NCBI GenBank assembly: GCA_016789845.1
Contig: JAEUQA010000017.1
Coordinates: 1-64,000 of the forward strand
Source of the DNA: Chromatiales bacterium
GTDB taxonomy: Bacteria > Pseudomonadota > Gammaproteobacteria > Steroidobacterales > GCA-2729495
Direction of reading: 5' to 3'
Length of the DNA stretch: 64,000 bases
Numbering within the stretch: position 1 is the first letter of the stretch; each line of letters opens with the position of its first letter. The notes under the pieces were generated by a model. It was given only the letters and a program-made list of their open reading frames with translations, was not told where the DNA came from and did not search any database. A program made the position numbers and the translations under genes. Below, piece by piece: positions 1,708-30,791 of the stretch.

Positions 1708-1820
1708 TTCGATGTCCGGGGACATCCAAGAAGGTCCCAGAGCCATGTTAAATACCTGATTTATTGGGGCTTTCGCATCCAAGGGCGTCCGGCCACATTC
1801 TGTTAAATCCGGCCTTCTTT

Positions 1821-1878: not shown

Positions 1879-1883
1879 ACTTT

Positions 1884-4209: not shown

Positions 4210-5024
4210 TGACTCCCACAGCCACGAAGGTGACCGTGCCGAGCCCTCCGGACATTTCCATGCCGCCACAGCGGGCCCCGAGGATGATTGAAGTGGCCCT
4301 CCAATATGCTGCCCACGCCTGGCCGGTCCTCCCCTTGGTGCCGGGCGGCAAGGTGCCCGTAATTCGTGGTGGACGCGGTTGTCATGATGCCAGCACCAAC
4401 GGGGACCAGATCCGCGACTGGTGGTCGCGATATCCAGAAGCCAACGTGGGCCTTGCGACAGGGCGGCGTTCGGGGGTCGTGGTCCTCGACATTGACGTCA
4501 AGGACGGAAAGCCCGGGCTGCGGTCGCTCAGTGAGTTGTCCCCCCCACCCACGTTCACCGTACGCACCGCCAGCGGCGGCCTTCACCTCTACTACCGCAT
4601 GCCACCCGGCGCCGACATCGGGATCGGTGCAGGGATATTGCCCGGCATTGACTGGCGCGGGACAGGGGGTTACGTCGTTGCGGCCGGCGCGGTCACTCCG
4701 GCTGGCGTCTATGCCATTACAGAAGGCCTTCCCCTCGCAGACTTGCCGCCCCGTTTGGCCGACCTTCTCCGCCGGGGACCAAAACGTCCAGCACTTGCAG
4801 CTGATTCCCGTGGCGAGCTCGTAGTTCCTGAAGGCCAGCGCGATGACGCCCTGATGCGCATGGCGTGCGGATTGCGCCGCTTCGGGGTGGGCGCCCAAGC
4901 GATTCTGGCGGCACTGCGTGGACTCAACGCAGCGTTGTGCCACCCACCTCTTCCTGATACGGACCTTCAGCGAATTGCCGTATCGGCCGCGAAGTATCCA
5001 CCCGCCAATCGGGGGATGGCATGA
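4209..5024 (+). CDS. PrimPol (bifunctional DNA primase/polymerase) domain protein
   Basis: This 271-aa protein belongs to the archaeo-eukaryotic-type PrimPol family (Pfam Prim-Pol), which starts replication of many plasmids, satellites and prophages. The N-terminal domain shows ALQYAAHAWPVLPLVPGGKV, the catalytic DxD of VVVLDIDVKDG near residue 98, and the SGGLHLYYR histidine motif near 125. It overlaps the AlpA gene by one base upstream and the VirE-type ATPase gene by four (ATGA), so the three form one operon. The start at 4209 is set by this coupling. Together with the ATPase it should form a stand-alone primase-helicase pair for autonomous replication of the excised island. Confidence 0.88.
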   Translation: MTPTATKVTVPSPPDISMPPQRAPRMIEVALQYAAHAWPVLPLVPGGKVPVIRGGRGCHDASTNGDQIRDWWSRYPEANVGLATGRRSGVVVLDIDVKDGKPGLRSLSELSPPPTFTVRTASGGLHLYYRMPPGADIGIGAGILPGIDWRGTGGYVVAAGAVTPAGVYAITEGLPLADLPPRLADLLRRGPKRPALAADSRGELVVPEGQRDDALMRMACGLRRFGVGAQAILAALRGLNAALCHPPLPDTDLQRIAVSAAKYPPANRGMA

Positions 5025-6298
5025 GTGCGGTGCTGTCGGTAGTTGGTGCACTTCCAAAGGCGGAGCCGAAGACCTGGGTTGAACAGCTGCGCAAAGGCCG
5101 TGACGGCTACGCCGGTGATGAGCGCAATGTCGTGATCGCACTGCGCAACGCCCCCGAACTTCGTGGCTTGATCCGCTTCAACGAGTTCGGCCTCGTGGTG
5201 GAATTTACGCGGTCCCCCCCGTGGCGGACGTGTGCCGTGGGCGCGCCCTGGACAGAGCCCGACGACACGGCGCTGGCGGTCTGGCTGCAAACTGAAGGAA
5301 TCCGTGTGCGTGGGCGGGCGACGGTCGCCGACTCGGTATTTCTGGTTGCTCTGGACGCCGCCTACCACCCCGTCCGCGAATACTTGCGGGGGTTGGTCTG
5401 GGACGGCGAGCCAAGACTCGAGACGTGGCTCGAGCTGTACCTCAATGCCAGCGGTGACCGGGACTACCTCGCAGCAATAGGTGGGCGCTTCATGATCTCG
5501 GCCGTCGCCAGAATCTTCCGGCCAGGCTGCCAGGCTGATCACGTGCTGACCCTCGAAGGACCTCAGGGGATTGGCAAGACGAGCGTAGCTCGCGCGTTGG
5601 CGATGGTGCCGGAGTGGTTCGCAGGCTCCCTGCCTGACGTTCACAACAAAGACGCGGCCCTGCAACTGGTCGGTCGCTGGATTATCGAGCTCGCGGAACT
5701 CAAGGCCATTCGATACGCTCAGTTGGAATCGATAAAAGCATTCTTGACTGAAACGGTCGACACATTCCGGCCACCTTATGGCCGACGTACCTCGCAGTTC
5801 CCGCGACAATCCGTGTTCATCGCGACGACTAACGAAAGCGAGTATCTGCGGGACCGGACGGGTAATCGGAGGTATTGGCCAGTTCGCTGCGGCAGCGTGA
5901 ATCTTGCTGCACTGATGGCGGATCGCGCCCAGTTATGGGCCGAAGCGGTCTACGAGTTCGACCAGGGCGCTACCTGGCATCTCACCGCCGACGAAGCCGA
6001 GCTCGCGGAACAGGAGCAGCGCGGGCGCGTATACGTTACGGAGATCGAGGCCGATGTGGGCGAGTTCCTTGTCAGGCTCCGGGCCGACGGCGATGACGAG
6101 GTATCCGTCCGGGATGTGCTGGTCAATTGCCTCCGCATGGACCCGACCTCTGCTGGATATGCCGAGAGTGCTCGCCGGCTGGGGCCGGCGGTGGCCGAGG
6201 CCCTCGAGCACTGTGGCTGGCAGAAGGTTGGCCGCCGCCGGGGTGGGCCAGGTCGGAGGACCATTTATCGGTTTTCTGGCCAAGGTGGCCAAGGTTAA
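5021..6298 (+). CDS. VirE-type P-loop ATPase/helicase (replication)
   Basis: The 425-aa product matches the virulence-associated E (VirE, PF05272) family, SF3/D5-like ATPases that accompany PrimPol in mobile elements. Walker A is LEGPQGIGKTSVARAL near residue 183. An acidic Walker B-like strand follows (GRWIIELAELKAI), and the sensor region reads FIATTNESEYLRDRTGNRRY near 267-286, with the arginine-rich finger typical of this family. An N-terminal linker domain (LRFNEFGLVV-like, here LIRFNEFGLVVEF) precedes it. The start overlaps the primase stop (ATGA). The probable role is replicative helicase of the island. Confidence 0.88.
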   Translation: MSAVLSVVGALPKAEPKTWVEQLRKGRDGYAGDERNVVIALRNAPELRGLIRFNEFGLVVEFTRSPPWRTCAVGAPWTEPDDTALAVWLQTEGIRVRGRATVADSVFLVALDAAYHPVREYLRGLVWDGEPRLETWLELYLNASGDRDYLAAIGGRFMISAVARIFRPGCQADHVLTLEGPQGIGKTSVARALAMVPEWFAGSLPDVHNKDAALQLVGRWIIELAELKAIRYAQLESIKAFLTETVDTFRPPYGRRTSQFPRQSVFIATTNESEYLRDRTGNRRYWPVRCGSVNLAALMADRAQLWAEAVYEFDQGATWHLTADEAELAEQEQRGRVYVTEIEADVGEFLVRLRADGDDEVSVRDVLVNCLRMDPTSAGYAESARRLGPAVAEALEHCGWQKVGRRRGGPGRRTIYRFSGQGGQG

Positions 6299-7174: not shown

Positions 7175-7606
7175 GTGGGCGCTATCGTCCAGATTGAGGC
7201 CAGCCTCAATGCCAAGCAGCGAACCGCGCTGTTGCTGATGGCTCAGGGTCTGCCGTATACCCAAGTCGCTGAGCAGTCAGGCCTGGCCATACAGACGCTT
7301 TACAACCTGCGGGCCAGCAGCCCTGAGTTCCGGCGCGAGCTGGACCGGCTGCAGCGGCTGGCCTACGCGGAGGGCGTCTATCAGCTACGATCCCTCGTTG
7401 GGCAGGCCACCGAGACCCTCAGGGCCATCATGGCGGCCCCCGATGCCTCCTATCGTGACAAGCTCGGGGCAGCACGGGCGGTCTTCGAGTACGCGGGCGT
7501 GAGCCCAGATGACAACGCAGGCGTGGCCGAGGAGGGCGACGACCCCGAGTTCGCGGCACTCCTGGCCATCATGGAATCTGTGCTCGGTGCGACCGATGGC
7601 CACTAG
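7175..7606 (+). CDS. Terminase small subunit-like protein
   Basis: The 143-aa protein starts with a helix-turn-helix (LNAKQRTALLLMAQGLPYTQ then VAEQSGLAIQTLYNLRASSP) followed by helical segments and an acidic tail. This is the layout of small terminase subunits that bind pac or cos DNA. The GTG at 7175 follows GGAGAAAG. It overlaps the large-terminase-like gene by 11 bases, which supports the assignment. No sequence motif alone proves TerS function, and a DNA-binding regulator remains possible. Confidence 0.68.
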   Translation: MGAIVQIEASLNAKQRTALLLMAQGLPYTQVAEQSGLAIQTLYNLRASSPEFRRELDRLQRLAYAEGVYQLRSLVGQATETLRAIMAAPDASYRDKLGAARAVFEYAGVSPDDNAGVAEEGDDPEFAALLAIMESVLGATDGH

Positions 7607-10550: not shown

Positions 10551-13500
10551 GTGAACGTATTCGAGCTTCGCGATCGACTGGTCGCGGACTACGCCAATTA
10601 CACCCGCAGTTTCATAAAAATCCGCGACGAGCGCGTCTCCAGCCACGTGGCCAGCGCGCTGGACGCTGGTGCATTCTGGCCGGAGCCACTGTTGCAGCTC
10701 AATCCGACGTTCCTGCCGGGCGGGACCATCGACGATCTGGTCGGCCAGGGCGCACTGCACGCAGAGTGCAAACGGATTTTCCGGATCGACAAGACCGACA
10801 GTGACCACACTGGCAAGCAGCTATTGCTTCATGCCCATCAGCGTGACGCCATCCTAAAGGCTAAAGAGGGCCAGTCGTACGTCCTAACGAGCGGTACAGG
10901 GTCTGGCAAGAGCCTGACCTACATCGTCCCTATTGTTGACCATGTTCTGCGTAACGGTTCCGGACGCGGGATCCAGGCGATCGTTGTCTACCCGATGAAT
11001 GCGCTTGCCAATAGCCAGGACGAGGAACTCAGAAAGTTTCTCGAAAAGGGCTATCCGGAAGGCCAGTCTCCGGTCAGGTTCGCCCGTTATACCGGTCAGG
11101 AGAAGGGTGAGGCGCGGGAGGCAATTCGCACCAACCCACCGGACATTCTCCTAACCAACTACATGATGTTGGAGCTGCTCCTGACCCGGACGGAGGACCG
11201 GGAGCTGGTTCGAGCCGCGCAGGGCCTGAAGTTTCTCGTGTTTGATGAGATGCACACGTATCGGGGGCGACAGGGGGCTGACGTTGCATTGTTGATTCGG
11301 CGCTGTCGGCAGGCGTTCGGCGGCCATAACATCATTTGCATCGGTACGTCTGCGACGATGGCAAGTGGGGGTGCCACCACAGATCAGAAGGCATCCGTTG
11401 CGCGAGTTGCGCAGGCATTATTCGGCACCGGATTCGGTCCAAACCAGGTTATCGGCGAGACGCTTGAGCGAGCTACGCCGGAGTTGCGGTTCGACGACTC
11501 TCAGGTCCTGGACGTCCTTCGCAGCACAATCTCCTCGGATGCGTCCCCGCCAAGTGATTACGAAGGGTTTCGGCTTAACCCGCTTTCTTCGTGGATCGAA
11601 TCGATGTTTGGCGTTCGTGCCGAGGAGGACACGGGGCGGCTGATTCGTCAAATGCCACGTCGCCTTCAGGGTGCCGTTATCGAGGGCCAGAGCAGCGCTG
11701 CCACGGAGCTTGCGTTACTAACCGGAGCTCATGATGCGCAGTGCGCAGCGGTCCTGCGTCGATTCCTGCTCCAGGGCGCCAGCCTTCGCAGGGGTGAGTC
11801 TAGTCGCTTCCCCATCTTTGCCTTCCGTCTCCATCAGTTCTTCACCCGCGGAGACACGGTCTGGGCGACGTTGGAGCCTGACTCCATGCGCCATATGGAG
11901 ATGGCAAAGAAGGTCTCGAAGCCGGGAGAGCCTGACAAGCCGTTGTTCCCTCTGGTCTTCTGTCGCCATTGCGGCACAACGTATTACCGCGTCAAGCAAG
12001 CCTCAGACGAGCACGGGGCGTACCTGCAAGCTCGTGAGAACCGTAGGGAAGAGAACGATGATGGCAGTGGAGAGGCGTACCTATTTGTTTCGGAACTGGC
12101 CCCTTGGCCGCGCACAGATGGCTCAGCACTGTTACAACGACTGCCGGAGTTCCTGAAGGAGACGACGCCCCAGGGCGTTGAGCGCGTACGACCGGACAAT
12201 CGCGGCGATGTGCCCGAGCCAATCTTCGTCAATGCCGCTGGTCGTATCGTTTCGGAGGGACAAGGTATCCCTGCGGCCCTGATACGCAAGAACTTTCTGT
12301 TCTGTCTCGAGCCAACCTGTGGCGTGGCCTACACCAAGAGCCAGCGCTCGGAGCGCAATAAGCTCGCGACGCTGGGCGTGGACAATCGCAGTACTGCAAC
12401 CACGATCCTGGCCGTTCGCTCGCTAATCGAGTTGCAGGGCGACCGCGACCTCAAACCCGAAGCGCGGAAGCTCTTGAGCTTTACCGACAATCGTCAGGAC
12501 GCGTCGCTACAGGCCGGGCACTTCAACGATTTCGCGCAGGTGGCGTTGCTGCGGTCAGCCCTGCACAAGGCAACCCAGGACAAGCGGGCCACCGGCCTCA
12601 ACCATGGTGATCTGTCGCGCAGTGTTTTTGATGCCATGCAACTCCGTTTCGACGAGTACGCAGCCGATCCTGAAGTGCGCGGCCCGGCACGTAACGGGAC
12701 TCACGATGCCTTACGCCGGGTCATCGATTACTACCTCTACAGAGACCTGCAACGCGGCTGGCGGGTAACTGCGCCAAATCTGGAAGACTGCGGTCTGCTG
12801 ACGTTCGATTACGATGGCTTAAAGGGTGAGGAGGGCCTTCTCGGTGATTCCGGGCTGTGGTCTGCGGGCTTCGAGATTGGCAACGACCGTGATGGAAAGC
12901 AGTTCATCGAGACGCCGGTGCCGTTGCGCTCCTGCTCCGATGACGTTCGGGAGGAGGTGCTCAGAACGTTACTCGATGTCCTGCGCCGTGCGCTCGCTCT
13001 AAAAGTCGATGTCCTCGATCCCCAGAAACAGCTGGACCTGGTCGAGCAAACCAAGCAGCGGCTACTCGAGGATACCGTGTGGCATCTGGAGGACGCCCGA
13101 GAGCTGACCAAGGCCGTTGTGGCTTTCCCCCGGCCGAAGACCAGGCAAGACCGGACTGGCCTGTTTGTGTCGTCCTACGGGTCCTTCGGGCGCTACCTCA
13201 AGCGCACGCTAGCGCCCCATGTCCAGCCGGGTCAGCCCTTCGGCCGTCCCGAGGTTGATCAAGCCATCCAGTTCCTGTTACTCGCCCTAAAGCGATACGG
13301 CATTGTCGAGCAGGTCCGAAGCGGTCGCGACGGTGGTGATCCTGGCTACCAAGTCAACGCGGATGCACTTCGGTGGCGGCCCGGCGATGGTGACGTTCGG
13401 CCGATTGACCGGACGCGCATGATGGAGGCCGGTGAGATACCACCGGAAGTCAATCGCTACTTTGTCGATTGTTACCAGCGCTTCGTTGATCTCAAATGCG

Positions 13501-15830
13501 TACTTGAAGCCCGGGAACACACGGCCCAAGTCACGTCCGAGGACCGGGAGAGTCGCGAGGACAGGTTCCGCACCGGCGATCTACCACTACTGTTCTGCTC
13601 GCCCACTATGGAGCTGGGTGTCGATATTGCCCAGTTGAACCTTGTCAATCTGCGTAATGTTCCGCCGACACCGGCCAACTACGCCCAGCGCAGCGGACGC
13701 GCCGGTCGCGGTGGTCAACCGGCGCTCGTCTTTACGTATTGTGCCGGCCGGAGTCCGCACGACCAGTATTTCTTCCGCCAGCCCAGCAAGATGGTCGCGG
13801 GGGCGGTCGCACCCCCGCGTATCGACCTCCGAAACAGGGACCTCATTCGCGCGCACATCAATGCAGTCTGGATGGGTGCGGCCAGACCAAATCTAGGCAA
13901 GACACTGACCGCCGTTATTGATCCGACTGCTGTGGATGGTCGTCTTCCATTGCCAGTCCGAGACGGTGTCCTCCTGGAGCTCAGGAATCCCGTACACCGT
14001 GCAGCGGCCCTCGCAAAGGCCAACGAGCTGGTCGACGGCATTCGGGACGGCCTGTCTACTGCGGCATGGTTCCACGATGGCTGGGTTCGCGAGGTCCTGG
14101 ATCAAATCGAGCGTAGCTTCGATTCCGCTTGTGAGCGCTGGCGGAGTCTATATCGGTCGGCTGTCCGTCAGCGCGAACTTCATCACCGGATCATCGGCGA
14201 CCATTCCCGGCCGGAGCAGGAGCGGAACCATTCACGCCGGTTGCGGGCCCAGGCTGAGAGCCAGATCCGGCTTCTGACTGAGGCTGAGGGTATCTACGAA
14301 GGGGACTTCTACTCCTACCGATACTTTGCCGCTGAGGGGTTCCTGCCTGGCTACAATTTCCCGCGGCTGCCGCTGTCGGCTTACGTGCCTGGCCGGCGGC
14401 AGCGGAGGGGACGCGACGAGTTCGTGTCGCGACCCCGATTCCTGGCCATTTCGGAGTTTGGACCCCGAGCCCTTGTCTATCACGAGGGCGCGCGGTACCG
14501 CGTGTACAAGGTCAATCTGGACTTCGGCTCGGATGACATTGAGGCGACGCATAATCTGACGACGGCCACCATGAAGCGTTGTCCCGCTTGTGCCTATGCG
14601 CACCTCGAGCAGGGGCACAATCTGGCGGAAATCTGTGATCGCTGTGGTGCTGCGCTTGAGGGTCAAGCCAAGATCGAGAACCTGGTACAGCTGCAGAACG
14701 TCAGCCTCAAGCTGGCGCAGCGCATCACCTGCGACGAGGAGGAGCGGCAGCGCTTCGGTTACAAGCTGGTGACTTCCTACCGATTCCCGGAGATCGGGGG
14801 CCGCCTGGACCGAAAGGATGCCGAGGTCTGTCGCGACGGCGCCCTGATTGCCGGACTGAGCTACGGCGATGCCACGGACCTGTATCGCCTGAACCTCGGG
14901 TGGACTAACCAGGGCCCGGGCCAGCCGGCCGGCTTCAACCTCGATCTCGAGCGCGGGTACTGGTCGCGCAACCAGGCCGACGCCGACGACCAGGACGACG
15001 CCACGACGCAGGCCCGACTCCAGCGGGTGGTTCCCTATGTGAAGGACACGAAGAACGCTCTGGTCATGCGCTTTGAGCCTTCGCGGACCGGCCCCCAGAT
15101 GGCAGGCCTGCAGTCTGCGTTAAAGCAGGCCATCCAGGCACAGTTTCAGCTGGAGCCCCGGGAGCTTGCCTGCGAGCCGATGCCCTCGCCGCAGAACCGC
15201 CTGGAGATTCTGTATTACGAAGCCACGGAAGGCGGCGCGGGCGTCCTTCGCCAGATTGCAGATGATCCGCTGGTCCTGCCGGCGCTGGCGCGCCGGGCAC
15301 TTGAAATCTGCCACTATGATCCGGACACTCTGGAAGACCTCGGCGCAGCGAGCTGTGGCAAGGCCTGTTACGAGTGCCTGCTCGACTACGGGAACCAGCC
15401 AGATCACAAGGACCTGGATCGCTCCCTGATTCGCGACATCCTGGCAGAGCTGGCCCGATCAGAATGCCGGCCTGCTGGCGGCACAGGGTCACGCGCGGAG
15501 CGGATGGTCGCACTGCGCAACCGCTGCGACAGCCAGTTGGAAAAGCGCTGGCTAGACATGCTGGATGGCCAGATGCTGCGGCCACCAAGTGATGCCCAGT
15601 ACCTCATCGAGTCCTGCTCCACCCGACCGGATTTCTTCTATCGCGAACATAATGCGGCGATCTATGTCGATGGCCCGCCGCACGATGAAGCGGACCAGAT
15701 TCGGAAGGATGAGGAAATCAGCCAGCGCCTGATGGAGCAGGGTTACATCGTTATCCGCTTCCATCACCGTGCGGACTGGAACGAGATTGTCCGTCGCCAT
15801 CCTGACGTCTTCGGTACGCCCAGGATATGA
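10551..15830 (+). CDS. Giant SF2 helicase with DUF1998 and C-terminal nuclease-like domain
   Basis: This 1759-aa protein is probably a DNA translocase-nuclease of an anti-phage system. The SF2 core shows TSGTGSGKS near residue 115, FDEMHTYRGRQGADVALL near 231 and GTSATMASGG near 267; the second RecA lobe ends in NYAQRSGRAGRGGQ near 1046. Zinc-type cysteine pairs occur at CRHCG (about 470) and CPAC...CDRCG (about 1344-1367). The DUF1998 region includes YYEATEGGAGVLRQI near 1555 and CGKACYECLLDYGNQ near 1602. The last 110 residues (TRPDFFYRE, AAIYVDGPPHDEAD, GYIVIRFHH) follow the Vsr/DUF559 endonuclease pattern. The GTG at 10551 gives the family N-terminus VNVFELRDRLVADYANYTRS. It resembles DrmA plus DrmB of DISARM, or Druantia DruE. 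It heads the operon, and its ATGA overlap couples it to the next gene. Confidence 0.85.
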   Translation: MNVFELRDRLVADYANYTRSFIKIRDERVSSHVASALDAGAFWPEPLLQLNPTFLPGGTIDDLVGQGALHAECKRIFRIDKTDSDHTGKQLLLHAHQRDAILKAKEGQSYVLTSGTGSGKSLTYIVPIVDHVLRNGSGRGIQAIVVYPMNALANSQDEELRKFLEKGYPEGQSPVRFARYTGQEKGEAREAIRTNPPDILLTNYMMLELLLTRTEDRELVRAAQGLKFLVFDEMHTYRGRQGADVALLIRRCRQAFGGHNIICIGTSATMASGGATTDQKASVARVAQALFGTGFGPNQVIGETLERATPELRFDDSQVLDVLRSTISSDASPPSDYEGFRLNPLSSWIESMFGVRAEEDTGRLIRQMPRRLQGAVIEGQSSAATELALLTGAHDAQCAAVLRRFLLQGASLRRGESSRFPIFAFRLHQFFTRGDTVWATLEPDSMRHMEMAKKVSKPGEPDKPLFPLVFCRHCGTTYYRVKQASDEHGAYLQARENRREENDDGSGEAYLFVSELAPWPRTDGSALLQRLPEFLKETTPQGVERVRPDNRGDVPEPIFVNAAGRIVSEGQGIPAALIRKNFLFCLEPTCGVAYTKSQRSERNKLATLGVDNRSTATTILAVRSLIELQGDRDLKPEARKLLSFTDNRQDASLQAGHFNDFAQVALLRSALHKATQDKRATGLNHGDLSRSVFDAMQLRFDEYAADPEVRGPARNGTHDALRRVIDYYLYRDLQRGWRVTAPNLEDCGLLTFDYDGLKGEEGLLGDSGLWSAGFEIGNDRDGKQFIETPVPLRSCSDDVREEVLRTLLDVLRRALALKVDVLDPQKQLDLVEQTKQRLLEDTVWHLEDARELTKAVVAFPRPKTRQDRTGLFVSSYGSFGRYLKRTLAPHVQPGQPFGRPEVDQAIQFLLLALKRYGIVEQVRSGRDGGDPGYQVNADALRWRPGDGDVRPIDRTRMMEAGEIPPEVNRYFVDCYQRFVDLKCVLEAREHTAQVTSEDRESREDRFRTGDLPLLFCSPTMELGVDIAQLNLVNLRNVPPTPANYAQRSGRAGRGGQPALVFTYCAGRSPHDQYFFRQPSKMVAGAVAPPRIDLRNRDLIRAHINAVWMGAARPNLGKTLTAVIDPTAVDGRLPLPVRDGVLLELRNPVHRAAALAKANELVDGIRDGLSTAAWFHDGWVREVLDQIERSFDSACERWRSLYRSAVRQRELHHRIIGDHSRPEQERNHSRRLRAQAESQIRLLTEAEGIYEGDFYSYRYFAAEGFLPGYNFPRLPLSAYVPGRRQRRGRDEFVSRPRFLAISEFGPRALVYHEGARYRVYKVNLDFGSDDIEATHNLTTATMKRCPACAYAHLEQGHNLAEICDRCGAALEGQAKIENLVQLQNVSLKLAQRITCDEEERQRFGYKLVTSYRFPEIGGRLDRKDAEVCRDGALIAGLSYGDATDLYRLNLGWTNQGPGQPAGFNLDLERGYWSRNQADADDQDDATTQARLQRVVPYVKDTKNALVMRFEPSRTGPQMAGLQSALKQAIQAQFQLEPRELACEPMPSPQNRLEILYYEATEGGAGVLRQIADDPLVLPALARRALEICHYDPDTLEDLGAASCGKACYECLLDYGNQPDHKDLDRSLIRDILAELARSECRPAGGTGSRAERMVALRNRCDSQLEKRWLDMLDGQMLRPPSDAQYLIESCSTRPDFFYREHNAAIYVDGPPHDEADQIRKDEEISQRLMEQGYIVIRFHHRADWNEIVRRHPDVFGTPRI

Positions 15831-18661
15831 CTGCGGCAGTCCTTTCCACACCCGGCACCCTGATCCACGCCCGTGGGCGTGAGTGGGTGGTTCTGCCAGA
15901 GTCGACTGAAGAGCTCCTGATTGCGCGGCCCCTGGGCGGCCTCGATGAGGAAGTCACCGGGATCCTGCCGGCCGTAGAGCCCGTTGCTTCCGCAACGTTC
16001 CGGCTGCCGACTGCAGAGGACCTGGGCGACTTCTCGTCCGGGCGGCTGCTCAGGGACGCGGCACGCCTCTCCACCCGCGCAGCAGCAGGCCCTTTCCGCA
16101 GTTTCGGCCGTATCGCCGCCGAGCCAAGGCCGTACCAGCTGGTGCCGCTGATGATGGCGCTCAAGCTGGACCCGGTGCGCCTCTTGATAGCCGACGACGT
16201 GGGTATCGGTAAGACCATCGAGGCCTGCCTGATTGCCCGCGAGCTGCTCGACCGTGGTGAAATCCGCCGGTTCGCGGTCCTGTGCCCACCCAGTCTGGCC
16301 GAGCAGTGGCAGCGCGAGTTGAACCAGAAGTTCCACATAGATGCCGAGCTCGTCCTGTCGAGTACGATCCAGCGCCTGGAGCGGAATCTCCCTGTTGGTG
16401 TTTCGGTCTTCGACCGGCACCGGTTCACTGTGGTTTCGACGGACTTCATCAAGTCTCCACGGCGGGCCGAGGATTTCGCCCTCAAGTGTCCGGAGTTCGT
16501 GATCGTGGACGAGGCTCACGGCTGCACCCTCGCAGGTGGGGTCGGACGCAGCCGCCAGCAGCGCTTCGACCTCCTGCGTCGGGTTACCGAAGTGCCCGAC
16601 CGTCACCTCGTGCTGGTTACAGCGACGCCTCACAGCGGCAACGAGGACGCGTTTCGCTCGCTGCTGAGTCTTCTCGACCCCGAGTTTGCCGGTCTGCCCA
16701 CTGACCTTGACCGTGCCGAGCGGGAGGGCGCACGGCGCCGATTATCAAAGCATTTTGTGCAGCGGCGGCGGGCTGACATTCGCCACTACCTCGAGGCGGA
16801 CACCGCTTTTCCCGAGCGGCAGGACAAGGAAGCCACCTATACCTTCAGCAAGCCCTACCGTTCGCTCTTCGAGGATATCCTCGGATTCGCCCGCGACTAC
16901 GTGTCCGAGACGGACGATGGCCAGCGCCGAAGGCGGGTGCGCTACTGGTCGGCACTGGCGCTGCTTCGCTGTGTCTCATCGAGTCCCGCGGCTGCAGCCG
17001 CCACGCTGCGCAGTCGCGCCGCAGTTGACCAGGCGGAGGACGAAACCGTGGACGAGGTGGGGCGCCGGACGGTCCTCGACCAGGGCGACGACGATGCCGC
17101 GGTCACACTCGATTTCAGTCCGGGCTCCGAGACGGAAGGGGATGAGGAAGCCACGCGCCGCCAACTGCTCGAGTTCGCCCGACAGGCAGAGGCGATTGCT
17201 CCCGAGGATGACCAGAAGCTGCAGGGCGCTGTCCGAGAGCTCAAGGCATTGTTGAAGGACGGCTACCAGCCGATCGTCTTCTGCCGCTTCGTGGACACGG
17301 CCGAGTATGTCGCCCGCCAGCTTCGGGAGGCCCTGCCGGCCCGGGTGCGCGTGGAGTCCGTGACCGGCCAGCTGCCGCCGGTGGAGCGGGAGGAGCGCAT
17401 CGCCGGGCTGGTCGCCGATGCCGACAGCTACGTGCTCGTGTGCACGGATTGCCTCTCGGAGGGCGTGAACCTCCAGGACAACTTCAACGCGGTACTGCAC
17501 TACGACCTCGCCTGGAACCCGACCCGCCACGAGCAGCGCGAGGGCCGTGTCGACCGCTTCGGCCAGGAGAAGTCGGAGGTCCGCGTACTGACCTACTACG
17601 GCACCGACAACCCGATCGACGGCGTGATCCTTGACGTGCTGATCCGCAAGCACAAGACCATCAAGAGCGCCCTTGGTGTGACGGTGGCAGTGCCTGGCTC
17701 CAGCGAGCAGATCGCCGAGGCGCTGTTCGAGGGCGCGCTCTTCCGCGAGCAGACGCGATCCGGGAACCGGCAGATGGCGCTCGCCTTCATCGATGACCTC
17801 GGTCCGAAGCGGGACGCCGTGCACAAGGACTGGGACAACGCCCGGGACCGGGAAAAAGCTACCCGTTCACGGTTCGCCCAGCACACGCTGAGCCCCGAAG
17901 CGGTGGCGGTCGAGCTGGAGGCAGTACGGTCGGCGATTGGCCGAAGTGAGGATGTCGCACGGTTCTTCAGCGAGGCGCTGCAGGCTGCCAACGTTCCCAT
18001 TGAGGTGAACGGCAAGGCAGTGACCGTGTCCTTGAGCACCGAGACACGCCGCGCCCTGCGCCAGGCGATCGGGCACGACGAGCCGATCACCGGTCGCTTT
18101 GATCTGCCGGTGCCAGCCGGCGAGTTCTATCTCGGCCGCACCAGCGCGATCGTGGAAGGCCTGGCGGGCTGGGTGCTCGATGAGGCCCTGGACCCGGTTG
18201 CACGGGACGGCGACCCCGTGGCGTCGCGTTGTGGTGTCGTGTCCACGTCGGCGGTGAGTGGCCGCACGATTCTTCTCGTCGGCCGTTTTCGCTACCACGT
18301 AAAGATCGCCGGGACGGCTGCGGAGACGATTCTGTGCGAGGAAATCGTGCCGCTGGCCTGCACGGGCTCTGCGGAAGCCCCACAGTGGCTCTCAGCTGAA
18401 GAAGGTGAGCGCCTCCTCGGTGCACGCCCCGAACGAAACCTGATTCAGACTGCCATCGATCAGCAGCTGGGCCTGCTGTTGTCCGCCCTGCCGAAACTGC
18501 AGGCCGCGCTGGCCACCGTGGCCCAGGAGCGGGCAGTCGCGCAACTGGAAGCCCACGCCCGCGTACGCGAGGCCTCACGCACTAAGGGTCGGGTGAGCAT
18601 AGAGCCAGTACTGCCTGCCGATATCCTCGGTGCCTACGTCGTCCTTCCCAAGGTCGGGTAG
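15827..18661 (+). CDS. DrmD-like SNF2-family helicase
   Basis: The 944-aa protein is a SNF2/RapA-type ATPase, the class called DrmD in class 1 DISARM, which acts on double-stranded DNA. Motifs are RLLIADDVGIGKTIEA near residues 118-134, VIVDEAHGC near 225, VTATPHSGNEDAF near 265, and in the second lobe VLVCTDCLSEGVNLQDNF near 536 and HEQREGRVDRFGQ near 568. The C-terminal 300 residues carry a family-specific region ending in coiled-coil-like helices (LPKLQAALATVAQERAVAQL). It overlaps the giant helicase stop by four bases (ATGA) and lies six bases before the next gene. The DrmD assignment rests on motif pattern, size and neighbours. Confidence 0.85.
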   Translation: MTAAVLSTPGTLIHARGREWVVLPESTEELLIARPLGGLDEEVTGILPAVEPVASATFRLPTAEDLGDFSSGRLLRDAARLSTRAAAGPFRSFGRIAAEPRPYQLVPLMMALKLDPVRLLIADDVGIGKTIEACLIARELLDRGEIRRFAVLCPPSLAEQWQRELNQKFHIDAELVLSSTIQRLERNLPVGVSVFDRHRFTVVSTDFIKSPRRAEDFALKCPEFVIVDEAHGCTLAGGVGRSRQQRFDLLRRVTEVPDRHLVLVTATPHSGNEDAFRSLLSLLDPEFAGLPTDLDRAEREGARRRLSKHFVQRRRADIRHYLEADTAFPERQDKEATYTFSKPYRSLFEDILGFARDYVSETDDGQRRRRVRYWSALALLRCVSSSPAAAAATLRSRAAVDQAEDETVDEVGRRTVLDQGDDDAAVTLDFSPGSETEGDEEATRRQLLEFARQAEAIAPEDDQKLQGAVRELKALLKDGYQPIVFCRFVDTAEYVARQLREALPARVRVESVTGQLPPVEREERIAGLVADADSYVLVCTDCLSEGVNLQDNFNAVLHYDLAWNPTRHEQREGRVDRFGQEKSEVRVLTYYGTDNPIDGVILDVLIRKHKTIKSALGVTVAVPGSSEQIAEALFEGALFREQTRSGNRQMALAFIDDLGPKRDAVHKDWDNARDREKATRSRFAQHTLSPEAVAVELEAVRSAIGRSEDVARFFSEALQAANVPIEVNGKAVTVSLSTETRRALRQAIGHDEPITGRFDLPVPAGEFYLGRTSAIVEGLAGWVLDEALDPVARDGDPVASRCGVVSTSAVSGRTILLVGRFRYHVKIAGTAAETILCEEIVPLACTGSAEAPQWLSAEEGERLLGARPERNLIQTAIDQQLGLLLSALPKLQAALATVAQERAVAQLEAHARVREASRTKGRVSIEPVLPADILGAYVVLPKVG

Positions 18662-18667
18662 GGCCGC

Positions 18668-19576
18668 ATGCAGCGCCTGAACACCAGTGAAGTCGCCGCA
18701 ATCGAGGCAAACCTCTTCGCGGGTGCGCGGCGAATAGTGCGCGAGCAGCCCGACTTTCCATGGCACCGCGACAGTCGCGGCGCCGTGACCGCAACCCAGC
18801 CGAACTCCTCGCAGGCCCTCGCCGTCGATCTGTTCGGAACCATTGATGTACTGAGTTCCAGAAATGCGATTGTCGATGCCTGGATGGCAGACATGTCGCT
18901 GACCCTCGCCGGGCCATGGACGATCGAACTCGAGGCCCTGCTGCCACGCGAGCTGTTGGGCGAGCGGCGCCAGACCCAGATGGATGCCCTGGCAATCGGG
19001 ATTACCGGAATAGCCGTGTTCGAGTGCAAGTTCACGGAACCCGATGGCGGCGGGTGCAGTCAGCCGGTGCCCCTATCACGTGGGGCACATGGTGGCATGA
19101 GGCAGTGCGATGGGAACTTCCGCGACCAGGTCAATCCGGTGAACAACGTGCGGGCGCCATGCGCACTCACCGGGAAGGGCATCAGGTACTGGGATTTAAT
19201 CCCGGATGTGCTCGCGATCGATCCGACTCTGGAACATCGGCCCTGCCCGTTTTCCGGGGGCTGGTACCAATGGATGCGCAATCTCGTTGCGGCGAGCGCT
19301 CTTGGACGTACCAAGGGCTTGCCGGCAGCCGTCGTGGTCGTCTATGCGGATGGTCCATTCCCCATGGCCTGGAAGGTCGGTAGCGGGGAATGGCATCGAC
19401 TCAATGAGCTTGCCGCGGGGCGGCAGGTTCCGCTCCGCACCGTTTCCTACCAGCATCTGCTCGTTGTTGCGGCTAACGCCGCGCAGGCCACCGAGCGAGC
19501 CCTGATCGATCAACTGTCGGCGTGGATGGAAGCGAAATACGCGACAGTCGCGGCCATCCCGGAGCCCACCGCGTGA
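18668..19576 (+). CDS. PD-(D/E)XK nuclease-like protein in the defence operon
   Basis: The 302-aa product has a candidate PD-(D/E)XK core: QTQMDALAIG near residue 105 supplies the Asp, and GIAVFECKFTEPDGGGC near 115-131 supplies the E-x-K. Cysteines and aromatic motifs follow (MRQCDGNFRDQV, PCALTGKGIRYWDLI, PCPFSGGWYQW), reminiscent of PGN_0703-type putative restriction endonucleases. It sits six bases after the SNF2 gene and overlaps the methyltransferase start in GTGA, so it is a full member of the operon. DISARM as described has no such gene here. I infer a DNA-cleaving subunit; metal-dependent activity is not proven by sequence alone. Confidence 0.72.
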   Translation: MQRLNTSEVAAIEANLFAGARRIVREQPDFPWHRDSRGAVTATQPNSSQALAVDLFGTIDVLSSRNAIVDAWMADMSLTLAGPWTIELEALLPRELLGERRQTQMDALAIGITGIAVFECKFTEPDGGGCSQPVPLSRGAHGGMRQCDGNFRDQVNPVNNVRAPCALTGKGIRYWDLIPDVLAIDPTLEHRPCPFSGGWYQWMRNLVAASALGRTKGLPAAVVVVYADGPFPMAWKVGSGEWHRLNELAAGRQVPLRTVSYQHLLVVAANAAQATERALIDQLSAWMEAKYATVAAIPEPTA

Positions 19577-22500
19577 GCCGCCGGGGTCAGGAGTTCCAGA
19601 CCATCCGCTCCGAGGGCGGCCTGCTGCCGCCGGACCTTCTGCGACGCGTAATCGATCCGCGGTCGAACCTGCCCGGCACGAGCCCGAAGGACTACGGGCT
19701 GCCAGAGGGGGAGCGGCTCAACGAGGTGATCACCCAGTCCTGGAACCGCCTCCGCAAGCACTGGGCCGAGTTCCGCACGGCCGCCGCGAACCTGCCGGAG
19801 GGTGAGGCTGGAACCGGCCTGACCAACGACCGCTGGAGCCTTCCGCTGCTCCGCGAGCTGGGGTTCGGTTTCCTGCCGGCGAGTGCCGGTCCGGAAGTCC
19901 AGGGCCGCAGTTACCCGATCAGCCGCTTTTTTGGACCGGTACCGGTGCACCTGGTCGGCTGTGGCCTGTCCCTCGACCGTCGTGCCGCCGGCCAGCGGGG
20001 CGCTGCCGCCGGCAACCCGCACGGACTGGTGCAGGAGTTCCTGAACCGGAGCGCCGGGAACCTGTGGGCGATCGTCTCCAACGGCCTGCGTTTACGGGTA
20101 ATGCGCGACAACCAGGCGCTCTCGCGCCAGTCGTTCCTGGAGTTCGATGTCGAAGCCATGTTCGCCGGCGAGGTCTACTCCGACTTCGTATTGCTCTGGC
20201 TGATGGCCCATGCCACGCGCTTTGCGCCGCGCGAGGCCGATCGGCCGGAGACCTGCTGGCTGGAGGTATGGACCCGCGAGGCGGAGGAGCAGGGCACCCG
20301 GGCGCTGGGTGACCTGCGCGGTGGCGTGGAGCGCGCACTGCAGGTGCTGGGCGAGGGCTTCGTTGGCCACCCGAAGAATGCAGCGCTACGCGACTCGCTC
20401 CGCTCGGGCCAGCTCAGTCTCAACGACTTCCACGGCCAGCTGCTCCGTGTGGTGTACCGGCTGATCTTTCTGTTTGTGGCCGAGGACCGCACGCTCGACG
20501 GCAAGCCCTTGCTTCACCCACCCGATGAATCCGCAGCAGCCGTGACCGCTCGCGAGCGGTACGCGTCCAGCTATTCGACCGCCCGCCTGCGCGAGATGGC
20601 GGGCCGGATCAAGGGCAGCCGCCACGGCGACCTGTGGCGGCAGTTCCAGCTCCTGGTAGGCGCCCTGTCAGGCGATCCGGCGTTTGCCGCAGCGCGTGAG
20701 CACCTGGCTCTGCCAGCCCTGGGCAGCTTCCTGTGGGATCCGGCCTCGACGGCGGCACTGAACGATACTGAGATCACCAATTACGACGTGCTGGAAGCAC
20801 TGCGCCACCTGGCGTTTACCCGGCAGGGCAACGCGTTGCGGCCGGTGGACTACCGGAACCTCGGGGCCGAGGAACTGGGGGGCGTCTACGAGACCCTGCT
20901 AGCGCTCACCCCACAGATCAGCGCCGACGGCGCGCGCTTCACCTTCGCCGAATTCGCCGGCAACGAGCGGCGGACTTCCGGCTCGTACTACACACCGGAT
21001 TCGTTGGTGCAATGCCTGCTCGATTCGGCGTTGGACCCGGTGGTCGCGGACACCTTAAAGGGCAAGTCCGGGGCCGAGGCGGAGCAGGCCATCCTTGGGC
21101 TGAAAGTCTGCGATCCCGCTGTGGGCTCCGGTCATTTCCTCGTGGGCGCGGCCCACCGGCTGGCCCGCCATCTAGCCCGCGTGCGGGCGGAAGCTGGAGG
21201 GGAGAGCGAGCCATCGCCGCTGCTGTACCAGCATGCGCTTCGCGACGTGATCGGCCGCTGCCTGTACGGCGTGGACATCAATCCCATGGCCGCCGAGCTG
21301 TGCCGCGTGAGCCTATGGCTGGAGGCCCTTGAGCCCGGCAGGCCGCTTTCGTTTCTCGACCACCACATTCGAGTTGGTAACAGCCTAGTGGGTGCAGCGC
21401 CGGATCTCGTCGAAGCGGGATTGCCCGACGATGCCTTCAAGCCCATCGAGGGCGACGAATCTGACTTCTGCTCGGCCCTCAAGAGACGTAATAGGGAGGA
21501 GCGCGAAGGCCGACAGCTGGGCCTCGACCTGCAGGCGGCGGAGCCGAGAGCGAGCTACGATGCCATCGCCTCCGGCCACGAAGAACTAGACGAACGACCT
21601 GATGACAGCTTTGAAGCGGTCCAGGGTAAGGCCGCGCAGTTCTGCCGGTTGACTGACTCTCCCGAGTATCGCCGCCGGAAGCGGGTGGCTGACGCTTGGT
21701 GCGCTGCCTTCGTCTGGCGCAAAGTGCGCGGCGCACCGAACCCGATAACCACTGACACAATCCGCCGGCTCGAAAGGGACGCCAATGCCCTAAGTCTCGA
21801 GCAGCAGGCAGAGCTGGAGGAACTAACCAAGCAATATCAGTTCTTCCATTGGAAGCTCGCCTTTCCAGAGGTTTTCGCGCGCACCGGATTCGACTGCGTC
21901 CTAGGCAACCCGCCGTGGGAGAAGATCCAGATCGAGGAGTCTAAGTTCTTCGCCTACTTGGCGCCGGATATTGCTACTGCCCGAGCGCAGAAGAGAAAGG
22001 CAGCAATTGCCGGTCTGAAGGCAGAACGGCCCTCTCTTTACGTTCTATACAAGAACGCGCTTAGAAGAGTGGCTGGTCAGGTTCATCAAATCAAGACTTC
22101 CGGTCGATTCCCCCTCTCCGGCGGGGGGAATGTTTCAACCCATTCCTTGTTTATCGAGTTGTGCGTCATCCTGAACGGCGGGGTTGGTAGCACAGGCCTC
22201 GTTGTTCCGAGCGGATTAGCAACCCAAGATAGCCAAAAGCACCTCTTTCGAGAGCTCACGAGAAACAACAGGTTAAGTAGTCTTTTCGACTTCGAGAACC
22301 GCTTGGCGATCTTCCCTGACGTCGATTCTCGCTTCAGATTCTGCCTAGTCACAATTAGACAACCGTCCAAGGCCTCCACCTCCTTGTTTGCGTTCTTTCT
22401 CGATTCTCCAGAAGCAATCAAACAGGATGAGCGTCTGTTCTCTCTAACGTTCGCTGAGCTTGAACGCCTTAGTCCGAATACAGGTTCATGTCCTCAGTTA

Positions 22501-24042
22501 TCGGGACGAATGGAGGCTGCACTTCTTACAAAGCTGTACAGTCACGGCGCGGTAATTCTCAATGAGTCATCAGGCGAGAATCCATGGGGTTGGCATTCAT
22601 GGCAAATGATCAATGAAACGCACGAATCCGCGCTTTTGTCGGACACAGGGGAAGAAAGTGGCGCTATTCGTTTGTATGAGGCAAAGCTCTTTCATCAGTT
22701 TGACCACAGGTATGCCACCTATGTGAGCAGCGACATAACCAAGCACGCCAGTGACGAGCAAAGACTATCTCCCGACTTTTGTGTTTCAACTAGGTACTTC
22801 GTCGCAGAAAACCTCTGGAACGAGCGCGTTAAGGGGCGAGGACACACTGCTAACTGGATCATGGCGTTTCGTAGGATCACTAACGCTACGAATCAGAGAA
22901 CCGCAATCTTCAGCGTCCTTCCGGTATGCGGAGCCGGTAGTCAAACGCCCGTTGTGACGACAAACTGCACTGCGGAAGTGACGGGGTCCCTGTTGGCAAA
23001 TCTAAATTCCTTTGCCTTTGATTTCGCTGCGCGCCGCCGGGTTGGTGGGACAGATCTCAATCACTTTATTATTCATCAGCTACCGACTCTGCCGCGAGAT
23101 CGATTCACGGATGCATGCACTCTAGATGCTTCAAAGACGCATTGGGCAGCATGGGTGTCGTCGCGCACCCTAGAGCTAACCTACACGGCGTGGGATCTCG
23201 AACCATTCGCCCGCGATTGCAGATGGGATGGGCCACCATTTCGATGGGACGAGCAGCGTCGATTCCTGCTACGTTGTGAATTGGATGCTGCATTCTTTCG
23301 CCTCTACCTGCCCGCTGACGAAGCCGGCAATTGGCGCCTTACGCCGGAGATTGACGGGCGCCCGAATGACGAGGCGGCCAGGGGGATTACTGAGCTCCGG
23401 CAACATTTCCCCAATCCTCGACACGCCGTGGCTTACATCATGGACACCTTCCCCCTAGTCCGCCGCAAGGACGAGGAGAAGTACGACGGCGATTATCGAA
23501 CTAAGCGCATAATCCTCGAGATCTACGACGACATGCAGGACGCGATTCGTACCGGAAAGCCCTATCAGTCCCGGCTCGATCCCCCACCCGGTCCGCCCTT
23601 GGGTGCCGACGGGACGTTTGTACAGTACGCCGATATCGCCGCCAATCCACCGCCGCACATTCACCTGCCGCGGGACGGAAGCGCGGTCGACGGGATGGAG
23701 CTGCAGCTGTCTGATCTGGGCGGGCACTTTCCCGGGAACTCTTGTGTTGTACGCCTGGGGTCCGGCGCGAACGCGCCCCGTGTTCGCGTACGGCCGGTGC
23801 GGCCTGAGGAGCTTCGGGCCGGCGCCAGGATCGTCCTGGCGAGCACGGAGCTGCGGCGAAACGGTGCGGAAGCTGGAGTCGCGATCGGCAAGCTCCGGGT
23901 CGAGTCACGAACCGACGCCACTACCGGATCGGCGTACCTGCTGGTTTCCGTCAAGGGCGACGATGGCCTGGCCCAGGCCCGGTTCTCCGAGGATCAGTGG
24001 CGCAACCTGACGACCGTCGGCGTCGTCGAAGATCTCGACTAG
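19573..24042 (+). CDS. DrmMI/Eco57I-like adenine-N6 DNA methyltransferase
   Basis: This 1489-aa protein is a gamma-class adenine methyltransferase of the Eco57I/PglX/DrmMI type. After a long N-terminal domain comes GNERRTSGSYYTPDSLV near residue 460. The AdoMet motif I VCDPAVGSGHFLVGAAHRLA starts near 511, YGVDINPMAAELCRVSLWLE near 564, and the catalytic FDCVLGNPPWEKI near 772. Beyond it, roughly residues 830-1180 form the expected target-recognition region, whose DNA is visibly less GC-rich than both flanks. The GTG at 19573 is set by the GTGA overlap with the nuclease-like gene; the ATG at 19522 would overlap it by 55 bases. It probably marks host DNA so the helicases and nucleases spare it. 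Confidence 0.87.
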   Translation: MSRRGQEFQTIRSEGGLLPPDLLRRVIDPRSNLPGTSPKDYGLPEGERLNEVITQSWNRLRKHWAEFRTAAANLPEGEAGTGLTNDRWSLPLLRELGFGFLPASAGPEVQGRSYPISRFFGPVPVHLVGCGLSLDRRAAGQRGAAAGNPHGLVQEFLNRSAGNLWAIVSNGLRLRVMRDNQALSRQSFLEFDVEAMFAGEVYSDFVLLWLMAHATRFAPREADRPETCWLEVWTREAEEQGTRALGDLRGGVERALQVLGEGFVGHPKNAALRDSLRSGQLSLNDFHGQLLRVVYRLIFLFVAEDRTLDGKPLLHPPDESAAAVTARERYASSYSTARLREMAGRIKGSRHGDLWRQFQLLVGALSGDPAFAAAREHLALPALGSFLWDPASTAALNDTEITNYDVLEALRHLAFTRQGNALRPVDYRNLGAEELGGVYETLLALTPQISADGARFTFAEFAGNERRTSGSYYTPDSLVQCLLDSALDPVVADTLKGKSGAEAEQAILGLKVCDPAVGSGHFLVGAAHRLARHLARVRAEAGGESEPSPLLYQHALRDVIGRCLYGVDINPMAAELCRVSLWLEALEPGRPLSFLDHHIRVGNSLVGAAPDLVEAGLPDDAFKPIEGDESDFCSALKRRNREEREGRQLGLDLQAAEPRASYDAIASGHEELDERPDDSFEAVQGKAAQFCRLTDSPEYRRRKRVADAWCAAFVWRKVRGAPNPITTDTIRRLERDANALSLEQQAELEELTKQYQFFHWKLAFPEVFARTGFDCVLGNPPWEKIQIEESKFFAYLAPDIATARAQKRKAAIAGLKAERPSLYVLYKNALRRVAGQVHQIKTSGRFPLSGGGNVSTHSLFIELCVILNGGVGSTGLVVPSGLATQDSQKHLFRELTRNNRLSSLFDFENRLAIFPDVDSRFRFCLVTIRQPSKASTSLFAFFLDSPEAIKQDERLFSLTFAELERLSPNTGSCPQLSGRMEAALLTKLYSHGAVILNESSGENPWGWHSWQMINETHESALLSDTGEESGAIRLYEAKLFHQFDHRYATYVSSDITKHASDEQRLSPDFCVSTRYFVAENLWNERVKGRGHTANWIMAFRRITNATNQRTAIFSVLPVCGAGSQTPVVTTNCTAEVTGSLLANLNSFAFDFAARRRVGGTDLNHFIIHQLPTLPRDRFTDACTLDASKTHWAAWVSSRTLELTYTAWDLEPFARDCRWDGPPFRWDEQRRFLLRCELDAAFFRLYLPADEAGNWRLTPEIDGRPNDEAARGITELRQHFPNPRHAVAYIMDTFPLVRRKDEEKYDGDYRTKRIILEIYDDMQDAIRTGKPYQSRLDPPPGPPLGADGTFVQYADIAANPPPHIHLPRDGSAVDGMELQLSDLGGHFPGNSCVVRLGSGANAPRVRVRPVRPEELRAGARIVLASTELRRNGAEAGVAIGKLRVESRTDATTGSAYLLVSVKGDDGLAQARFSEDQWRNLTTVGVVEDLD

Positions 24043-24055
24043 AAAGCAGGGGCGG

Positions 24056-25732
24056 ATGGCGAGGCTGTTTCCGAAGATCGAGCCGTCCGAGATCGAGAAT
24101 CCGGGCGAGCGCAAGGTGGCGGAGGCGCTGATCAGCCAGCTGCCGAGCCATGTCGAGGTCTTCCACAGTTTCAACTGGCTGACGCCGACCCACCGGGGGA
24201 CGTTGCAGGAGGGGGAGTGCGACTTCGTCTTGCTCGACCGCGAGAACGGTCTGCTGTTCGTCGAGGTCAAGGGCGGGTCGCTCGAGTTCTTCCCGGACCG
24301 GGGGGAATGGGTGCGCATCACGTCAGCGGGGGAGGAGCGCCGTCTCAACAAGGACCCGTTCGCGCAGGCCCAGAAGAGCATGCACGAGATAACCGAGCGA
24401 GTTAAGGCTCGGCTTCCCGGTGCCGGCGGTGGCTTGCCGTTTACCCACGGGTTCGCCGTGGCATTCCCGGACTGCCGCTATTCCGGCAGCCTGCCTCCGG
24501 CGATTGTGCCGGATCTCATCCTCGATGCGGCCCGCTGCCGGGAACTGGGACGGGCCGTGCAGGTGGTCTTCGACCGCTTCCGGCGCAAGGCCCATGCGGG
24601 GCTGTCCTCCGTGGAAATCGAGGCGATCTACGAGGCCCTGTTCCCCAAGTACGCAATCCTGCCGGTCATCTGGCGGAAGGTCGAAGATCAGGAAGAGCGC
24701 CTGCGGCGCCTCACGGCCGAGCAGCAGCGCCTGCTCGACTTCCTTGGTGGGCACAACAGGGCGGCCATTCGCGGCGTGGCCGGCTCGGGCAAGACCATCC
24801 TGGCCCTGGCCAAGGCCCAGGAGACGGCGCGCAAGGGCATGCGTACGCTATTCGTCTGTTACAACAAGCTGCTCAAGGACTGGCTTCAGCAGTCGATCCC
24901 CGAGTCTTTTGGGGACAATCTGGTCATCGACAACTATCACGGACTGGTGGACGACCTGTGCCGGGCGGCCGGGGTGATGTTGTGGAAGGACGCGAACCCG
25001 AAGGAGCAGTCCTTCTGGTCCGAGCACGCACCTGAGAGCCTGATGAAGGCCTGCGAGCAGCTCGGCCCCGAGCACAAGTTTGACGCCGTGATCGTCGACG
25101 AGGGCCAGGACTTCCAGGACCTGTGGTGGACCAGCCTGGAGGACGTGTTCCGGGACCCGGCCCGCAAGGGCTGCTACTACGTTTTCTACGACCCGAACCA
25201 GAACCTGTTCGTGGAGGCCCCGTCCATTCCCGGCGAGCTCGGGTCGCCTTATGACCTGCCGGTGAACTGTCGAAACACCGTGCGCATCGCCGAGCATTGC
25301 GCCGCACTGGTGGGGCTGGAGAACCATAGCCTCGACAGTGCGCCAATCGGGGATGAGCCGGAGGTGATCCAAGTGGCCTCGCTTCAGGACGCATTCAAGG
25401 AAGCCGGCAAGAAGGTTCGCAGCTGGTGCATGCCCAACGCCGGGGGGCTCAAGTTGGCCCAGGTCGCCGTGCTGGCTCCTGGGGGCACGGATCGTGCCTG
25501 GCCACGGGATTTCAAGACGATTGCGATTGCCCGCGACCTGGACAAGTGGCGGGGCAGCGAGGGCGTGCTGCTCACCTCGTGGAGCCGCTTCAAGGGGCTC
25601 GAGGCGGATGCCATCGTCCTGATCGAGGCGCCGACCGCTGATGCGGAGCATGAGAAGGCGAATCGCTACGTGGCGAGGTCGCGGGCCAAGCATCTGCTCA
25701 CAATCGTCAACGTCACTAACGCCACGACTTAG
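24056..25732 (+). CDS. NERD nuclease-UvrD-like SF1 helicase
   Basis: The 558-aa protein joins an N-terminal NERD (nuclease-related) domain to a UvrD-like SF1 helicase. In NERD, ECDFVLLDRENGLLFVEVKG near residues 54-73 gives the D...ExK pattern of PD-(D/E)XK enzymes. In the helicase, Walker A is GVAGSGKTILALAKAQE near 240, Walker B is AVIVDEGQDFQDLWW near 343, and a motif like TSWSRFKGLEADAIVLIEAP lies near 503. It starts 13 bases after the methyltransferase and is the last gene of the five-gene operon. NERD helicases occur in several defence islands; its exact job here is inferred only from context. Confidence 0.85.
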   Translation: MARLFPKIEPSEIENPGERKVAEALISQLPSHVEVFHSFNWLTPTHRGTLQEGECDFVLLDRENGLLFVEVKGGSLEFFPDRGEWVRITSAGEERRLNKDPFAQAQKSMHEITERVKARLPGAGGGLPFTHGFAVAFPDCRYSGSLPPAIVPDLILDAARCRELGRAVQVVFDRFRRKAHAGLSSVEIEAIYEALFPKYAILPVIWRKVEDQEERLRRLTAEQQRLLDFLGGHNRAAIRGVAGSGKTILALAKAQETARKGMRTLFVCYNKLLKDWLQQSIPESFGDNLVIDNYHGLVDDLCRAAGVMLWKDANPKEQSFWSEHAPESLMKACEQLGPEHKFDAVIVDEGQDFQDLWWTSLEDVFRDPARKGCYYVFYDPNQNLFVEAPSIPGELGSPYDLPVNCRNTVRIAEHCAALVGLENHSLDSAPIGDEPEVIQVASLQDAFKEAGKKVRSWCMPNAGGLKLAQVAVLAPGGTDRAWPRDFKTIAIARDLDKWRGSEGVLLTSWSRFKGLEADAIVLIEAPTADAEHEKANRYVARSRAKHLLTIVNVTNATT

Positions 25733-30376: not shown

Positions 30377-30791
30377 GTTCTGGCTTTTGGCCGCCGATAC
30401 GCACTCGAGCCAGCCAGGGCCAACGAGGCGCGTAGGCCATCACCCCACTACTGGCAGAGCGGAGCCAATCCAGGGGTAACTTTGGGGGTAACTCTCGCTG
30501 CTTCGGGCATGGAAAACGCAGTGCTATCAGCAGCTTGGACTCCAGATTCCAGAGTGCCCCTGGCCACCATAACTTCTCTACCCTCGCGCGACCTGCCGGC
30601 CAATAAACAAGTCGGGACGGGCCCTGATACCCGCTCCGCGCCCGGTTATGTCAACTGCCAGCATCACCCATTTGGGTGATGCGCCGCAGCTGTCCTGGGC
30701 CTAGGATCAAGCCGACAACTCTAATAACCCGTCCCCGGCGGCACCGCCGGGCCGGCGGCGAACAACAGGCTCCTCGACAGGGACATAACCC
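30377..30791. other. Right island end and attR flank
   Basis: This 415-base stretch has no convincing gene. It contains GGGGTAAC at 30473-30480 and again at 30485-30492, echoing the left end, then attR at 30556-30570. In the chromosomal part, a tight hairpin with arms GCATCACCCA and TGGGTGATGC lies at 30661-30682, upstream of the VPLPA-CTERM gene. Confidence 0.6.
30556..30570 (+). repeat. attR of the tRNA-Phe island
   Basis: GCCCCTGGCCACCAT is an exact direct copy of the tRNA-Phe 3' end at 1693-1707. The sequence on either side does not continue the tRNA, as expected for the distal attachment site. Confidence 0.88.

Follow-up and report, generated by a model that had tools for sequence, protein, structure and literature searches.

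A five-gene operon on a tRNA-Phe island, probably an ARMADA Type I locus with two acquired accessory nucleases

A stretch of 64,000 nucleotides from a Chromatiales bacterium (contig JAEUQA010000017.1, positions 1 to 64,000; the whole stretch is called the window below) contains five closely packed genes for helicases, nucleases and a methyltransferase. A first-pass annotation had described them as a DISARM-related defence operon and had taken them for a distinct system. Which defence system do these genes represent, and do all five belong to it? The answer that we favour, with a probability of roughly 0.8, is that the operon is ARMADA Type I plus two acquired accessory nucleases, located on a satellite-like island at a tRNA-Phe gene.

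All five ORFs of the ARMADA-like operon (10551-25732, forward strand) were present and intact. They encode a YprA-family SF2 helicase with a DUF1998/MZB region and a fused C-terminal Vsr-type PD-(D/E)XK nuclease (10551..15830, 1759 aa; ArmC-like), a RapA/BrxHII-like SNF2 helicase (15827..18661, 944 aa; ArmA-like), an accessory PD-(D/E)XK nuclease of the REase-ARP family (18668..19576; Pfam PF22558, 3e-12, above the cut-off), a PglX/Eco57I-like N6-adenine methyltransferase (19573..24042, 1489 aa; ArmB-like), and an accessory fusion of a NERD nuclease with a UvrD/SF1 helicase (24056..25732, 558 aa). The listed methyltransferase ORF starts upstream, at 19522, but since the relatives start at approximately residue 18 of that ORF, we preferred the GTG at 19573. 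With this start, the tight packing proposed by the first-pass annotation was confirmed, as the successive junctions were a 4-base overlap (15827-15830), a 6-base gap, a 4-base overlap and a 13-base gap. Its domain calls also held: DEAD, Helicase_C and MZB (DUF1998) in the first protein, SNF2 and Helicase_C in the second, then REase-ARP, Eco57I/N6_Mtase, and NERD with UvrD.

The helicase motifs of the operon were intact. In the YprA protein, Pfam matched the DEAD, Helicase_C and MZB domains. PADLOC models of both DruE and DrmA matched the protein, with 370.8 bits for DruE3 versus 51.9 bits for DrmA. The structure of residues 1385-1759 was predicted (pLDDT 84.8) and used for a fold search. The results showed that the modelled part matched OB-CON-DUF1998 of MrfA (Z 13.9), that its DUF1998 portion also matched DrmB of DrmAB (Z 9.6), and that the C-terminus after DUF1998 matched the Vsr endonuclease 1cw0 (Z 9.1, 2.5 A, 91 residues, 26% identity) and I-Bth0305I (Z 9.6). 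The Vsr-type domain, at approximately residues 1636-1759 (15456..15827, forward strand), has conserved E and D residues. The predicted structure thus bore out the earlier proposal of a nuclease fused to the first helicase. A BrxA-like helical insert after RecA1 is common to the YprA proteins of ARMADA, BRIGADE, TALON and Druantia; a fold search for such an insert with residues 265-480 (pLDDT 86.7, mostly helical) gave no significant match.

The RapA-like protein matched the PADLOC 'DpdE' model PDLC02853 over its full length (1.8e-247), and RapA was recovered when the PDB was searched with it. Its scores against the NCBIfam models were 302 bits for DrmD (cut-off 610) and 198 for DpdE (cut-off 500). 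The methyltransferase METHYLTRANSFERASE has an intact GSG (518) and NPPW (779) and matched the DrmMI model (8.6e-67, 224 bits); its PglX score was 42.6 bits, the curated cut-off being 400. In the REase, alignment with the homologues of locus L003 and of Rhizobium showed intact catalytic residues D106...E119-C-K121. The NERD-UvrD protein was matched by NERD in Pfam (1.7e-9) and by RTasNERD-Hel (6e-53) and C3a187 NERD+UvrD (8.5e-27) in PADLOC. Sequence searches of the PDB found no relative of the methyltransferase or of the NERD-UvrD protein, and only chance-level matches to the REase. The helicase-nuclease architecture of YprA and the motifs of the operon were established by these analyses.

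The catalytic half of the methyltransferase is conserved. Mean identity to 12 close relatives was 0.72-0.91 within residues 1-600 and fell to 0.24-0.53 within residues 601-1200. The hypervariable part (21370..23170, forward strand) also shows a sharp dip in GC, from approximately 0.68 to 0.48-0.57 in its centre. The loss of identity together with the GC dip suggests that this region is a target-recognition domain that has been exchanged. The intact motifs and the hypervariable region suggest, in turn, that the methyltransferase may provide methylation-based, sequence-specific self recognition.

ARMADA Type I has been defined by the gene order YprA-BrxHII-PglX and a Vsr-fused YprA (Bell et al., bioRxiv 2025, PMC12458937, as its Type I text describes it). 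The window shows the same order of YprA, BrxHII/RapA-like helicase and PglX-like methyltransferase, with one extra gene between the last two; its YprA has DUF1998 and a C-terminal Vsr nuclease, and its relatives are likewise spread widely across phyla. It differs in two added genes: REase-ARP separates the helicase gene from the methyltransferase gene, and NERD-UvrD lies at the 3' end. Neither appears in the Type I text of that preprint. On the preprint's definition, the earlier claim of a distinct system, although a sensible reading of the sequence, is therefore not supported as a novelty. Anti-phage activity has been demonstrated for ARMADA II, where the NPPW motif and all four genes were required and the defence was non-abortive, according to the ARMADA II text of the same preprint (PMC12458937); in the literature we found activity, methylome or phage data for no Type I system.

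The ARMADA II systems of E. coli ATCC 8739 and NCTC 12900 have homologous YprA, BrxHII and PglX and a trailing UvrD-family helicase. However, their order is BrxHII-PglX-YprA-ArmD (E. coli reference locus L097), whereas the operon of the window starts with YprA, and ArmD has a RelE-like domain where the trailing helicase of the window has NERD. The YprA proteins also lie on separate branches. In a FastTree analysis of 46 YprA proteins, which held few references and did not include the published Type I reference WP_108720193.1, the window YprA grouped with actinobacterial and Cloacimonadota loci of identical gene order; this group had strong support and was separate from both ARMADA II and Druantia III. 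The ARMADA II side contained E. coli ATCC 8739 (L097), a close copy of it carried by an E. coli plasmid, and Haematobacter. The assignment to the Type I clade was made because of the gene order, the architecture, and the exclusion from Type II and Druantia.

Other named systems were also considered. Among named relatives of the window YprA in PADLOC, DruE of Druantia Type III scored highest, but the window nuclease is Vsr rather than PLD-type, a methyltransferase and a RapA-like helicase are present, and a scan of the operon and neighbouring genes gave no match to DruH; Druantia Type III was therefore rejected for want of the DruH partner and for the Vsr C-terminus. BREX was rejected because of the low PglX score and because PglZ/BrxZ had no match among the proteins scanned. 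Dpd was rejected despite the one PADLOC DpdE match, since the NCBIfam DpdE score was below its cut-off and neither the operon nor the neighbouring genes that were scanned contained a DpdA or 7-deazaguanine partner.

The possibility exists that the operon is a true Class 1 DISARM variant, with DrmD, DrmMI, a fused DrmAB and other nucleases in place of drmC. The DrmD and DrmMI matches and the DrmB-like fold of the DUF1998 module agree with this. However, the DrmA match is weak beside that of DruE3, the DrmD score is less than half the curated cut-off, DUF1998 is fused to the helicase, the gene order is different, and there is neither a separate drmB nor a PLD drmC. We therefore rejected membership of DISARM Class 1, and consider the variant most improbable. 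The same scores and missing partners upheld the earlier view that the operon is related to DISARM, lacks separate drmB and drmC genes, and is neither DISARM, Druantia nor BREX. The PADLOC search that had been proposed gave matches to models from three other systems (DruE, DpdE and DrmMI).

With the RapA-like protein, we retrieved 80 related loci from many phyla, one genome per species. YprA, RapA-like and methyltransferase genes occurred in this order in 75 of them, and the remaining five end at contig ends; such synteny is far beyond chance. The accessory genes behaved otherwise. The REase was found in a single locus (L003; 60% identity), at the RapA/methyltransferase junction as in the window, and a full-length NERD-UvrD also in one (L008; 66% identity), at the matching 3' position. 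The spacing between RapA-like and methyltransferase genes exceeded 300 bases in five loci, including L003. Among the 47 genes found after the methyltransferase, 17 had an AAA_5 (McrB-like) domain; there were 8 UvrD helicases, or 9 if the NERD-UvrD of L008 is counted, and HamA, SIR2, TIR, FRG or AIPR were represented by single or few genes. The association with McrBC agrees with PMC11090510. In L003, Hachiman HamA and HamB (17707-21890) lie directly 3' of the ARMADA methyltransferase with a 4-base overlap, and L010 has an LmuB-like gene 3' of its methyltransferase.

These data bear on whether the REase and NERD-UvrD are obligatory subunits of a new five-gene system. The operon-like spacing extends across all five genes, and each extra gene occupies the matching place in one sister locus. 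Yet no second locus among the 80 had both, each being present in 1/80, and where REase-ARP homologues occurred elsewhere, in six further genomes of the phylum and two Rhizobium plasmids, they were not near ARMADA genes. Thus, recurring in one locus each, the accessory genes do not make the five a recurrent unit, and an obligatory five-subunit system is unlikely. It is also possible to view the REase and methyltransferase as a classical restriction-modification pair inside an ARMADA operon, with the helicases separate; their 4-base overlap and the intact catalytic residues of the REase fit this, but the methyltransferase is an ordinary ARMADA core gene, and nearly all loci that have it lack the REase, which makes such a pair very unlikely. 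Since varied genes fill the accessory positions and REase-ARP occurs elsewhere away from ARMADA, the extra nucleases are best read, from the sequence comparisons, as exchangeable additions to an ARMADA I core. More tentatively, the window may represent an ARMADA I sub-variant in which three independent nucleases (Vsr, REase-ARP and NERD) serve one methylation-guided core and the two outer positions are exchangeable effector slots, comparable to the accessory effectors found in other defence systems of modular design.

The close kin of the window YprA were labelled Actinomycetota, Myxococcota, Thermodesulfobacteriota, Acidobacteriota, Binatota and Pseudomonadota, suggesting that the system moves between phyla, with the limitation that many of these are metagenome bins and may be misassigned. 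Across the class, the RapA-like protein was found in 7 of 369 genomes, counting that of the window. A YprA match was present in 2 of 98 other related genomes, as a fragment in one (G051) and truncated in the other (G010). The latter, the closest kin genome and a member of the same family, has a decayed ARMADA copy (locus L099, 9553-17339) without the YprA start, the RapA end and the methyltransferase, and because of this truncation it gives no information on accessory genes. Over 7.6 kb, the DNA of this copy is 96% identical to that of L003, a locus with the label Actinomycetes. In viral contigs there were four relatives of YprA, three of them near full-length (35-41% identity), and a pattern scan found no relative of the REase.

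The operon is cargo of an integrase/VapE island of approximately 28.9 kb (window 1631-30570), a satellite-like mobile element. ARAGORN identified the integration target, tRNA-Phe(GAA), at 1631..1706 on the forward strand. The 15-bp direct repeat GCCCCTGGCCACCAT consists of the last 14 tRNA bases plus one; it forms attL (1693..1707) and recurs once in the window, as the exact copy attR (30556..30570, both given on the forward strand), where an order-2 model expects 0.0008. After the tRNA, on the forward strand, come an adjacent tyrosine integrase (1764..3101, start approximate; PF00589, PF22022, PF13356; phrog_1), a VapE-like helicase of the phage/satellite replication type (5021..6298; PF05272 6e-77; phrog_256), and a small terminase-like/HTH protein (7175..7606; phrog_2538 2e-7). 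GC3 was 0.91-0.98 in four genes measured outside the island and 0.71-0.86 inside it. The mutY-yggX-tRNA-Phe flank is shared with three congeners, in which similarity stops at window positions 1706, 1709 and 1727. It is from the direct repeats, the GC3 contrast and these end points that we conclude integration. The right flank of the window was not found beside mutY-yggX-tRNA-Phe in the three congeners, so that an empty attachment site was not recovered. A 638-aa protein upstream of the operon (7509-9425) had no Pfam, NCBIfam, PADLOC or PHROGs match, and a gene on the reverse strand inside the island (27494-28687) matched the PADLOC candidate family PDC-S11 (2.7e-14), possibly a further defence gene. 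In E. coli ATCC 8739, ARMADA II adjoins tRNA-Phe and an integrase in a mobile element, as the preprint reports in its account of that strain (PMC12458937).

By analogy with ARMADA II, DISARM and DruE of Druantia III, we infer how the ARMADA I operon might act, in what order, and with what part for the accessory nucleases. With its exchangeable recognition domain, the methyltransferase would mark host DNA at a short sequence. As in DISARM and ARMADA II, the methyltransferase and the RapA-like motor would then recruit or license YprA on unmarked invading DNA. YprA would load at 3' single-stranded regions and unwind the DNA, which its Vsr domain would cut, as the activities of MrfA and DruE suggest; the YprA-related DruE engages 3' ssDNA (PMC13192584). 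The REase and NERD-UvrD might further cleave and unwind the DNA thus exposed, from the positions where sister loci have McrB-like, HamAB or other UvrD genes. The cell would be expected to survive, the defence being direct and non-abortive, as measured for ARMADA II.

The locus ties a conserved ARMADA I core to changing accessory genes (McrB-like, HamAB, LmuB-like, SIR2, TIR, NERD-UvrD and REase-ARP), and places an ARMADA I operon on a tRNA-Phe satellite-like element whose target is shared with the E. coli ARMADA II element. As the 2023 PADLOC models name its parts DruE, DpdE and DrmMI, these models can lead to ARMADA loci being mistaken for pieces of three other systems. The core has already been described; the novelty that remains is which accessory genes accompany it and where they are found, although the supplementary tables of PMC12458937 may list the same genes.

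Elsewhere in the window, an HsdR-like gene (EcoEI_R_C, HSDR_N) and, after it, an ORF of 384 aa that may be HsdS lie at 59689-63686 and probably form a type I restriction-modification locus. The REP-like palindromic family GTAGGAGCGCCTTCAGGCGCGAC occurs at 1210, 1501, 1589, 35742, 54178, 54991, 60166, 60676 and 62317, with many more copies genome-wide. Three tandem copies of approximately 600 bases lie within a 1072-aa ORF (44818-46435), and proteins near these repeats (31365, 50139, 51105, 51850) have a common C-terminal motif that resembles a PEP-CTERM sorting signal.
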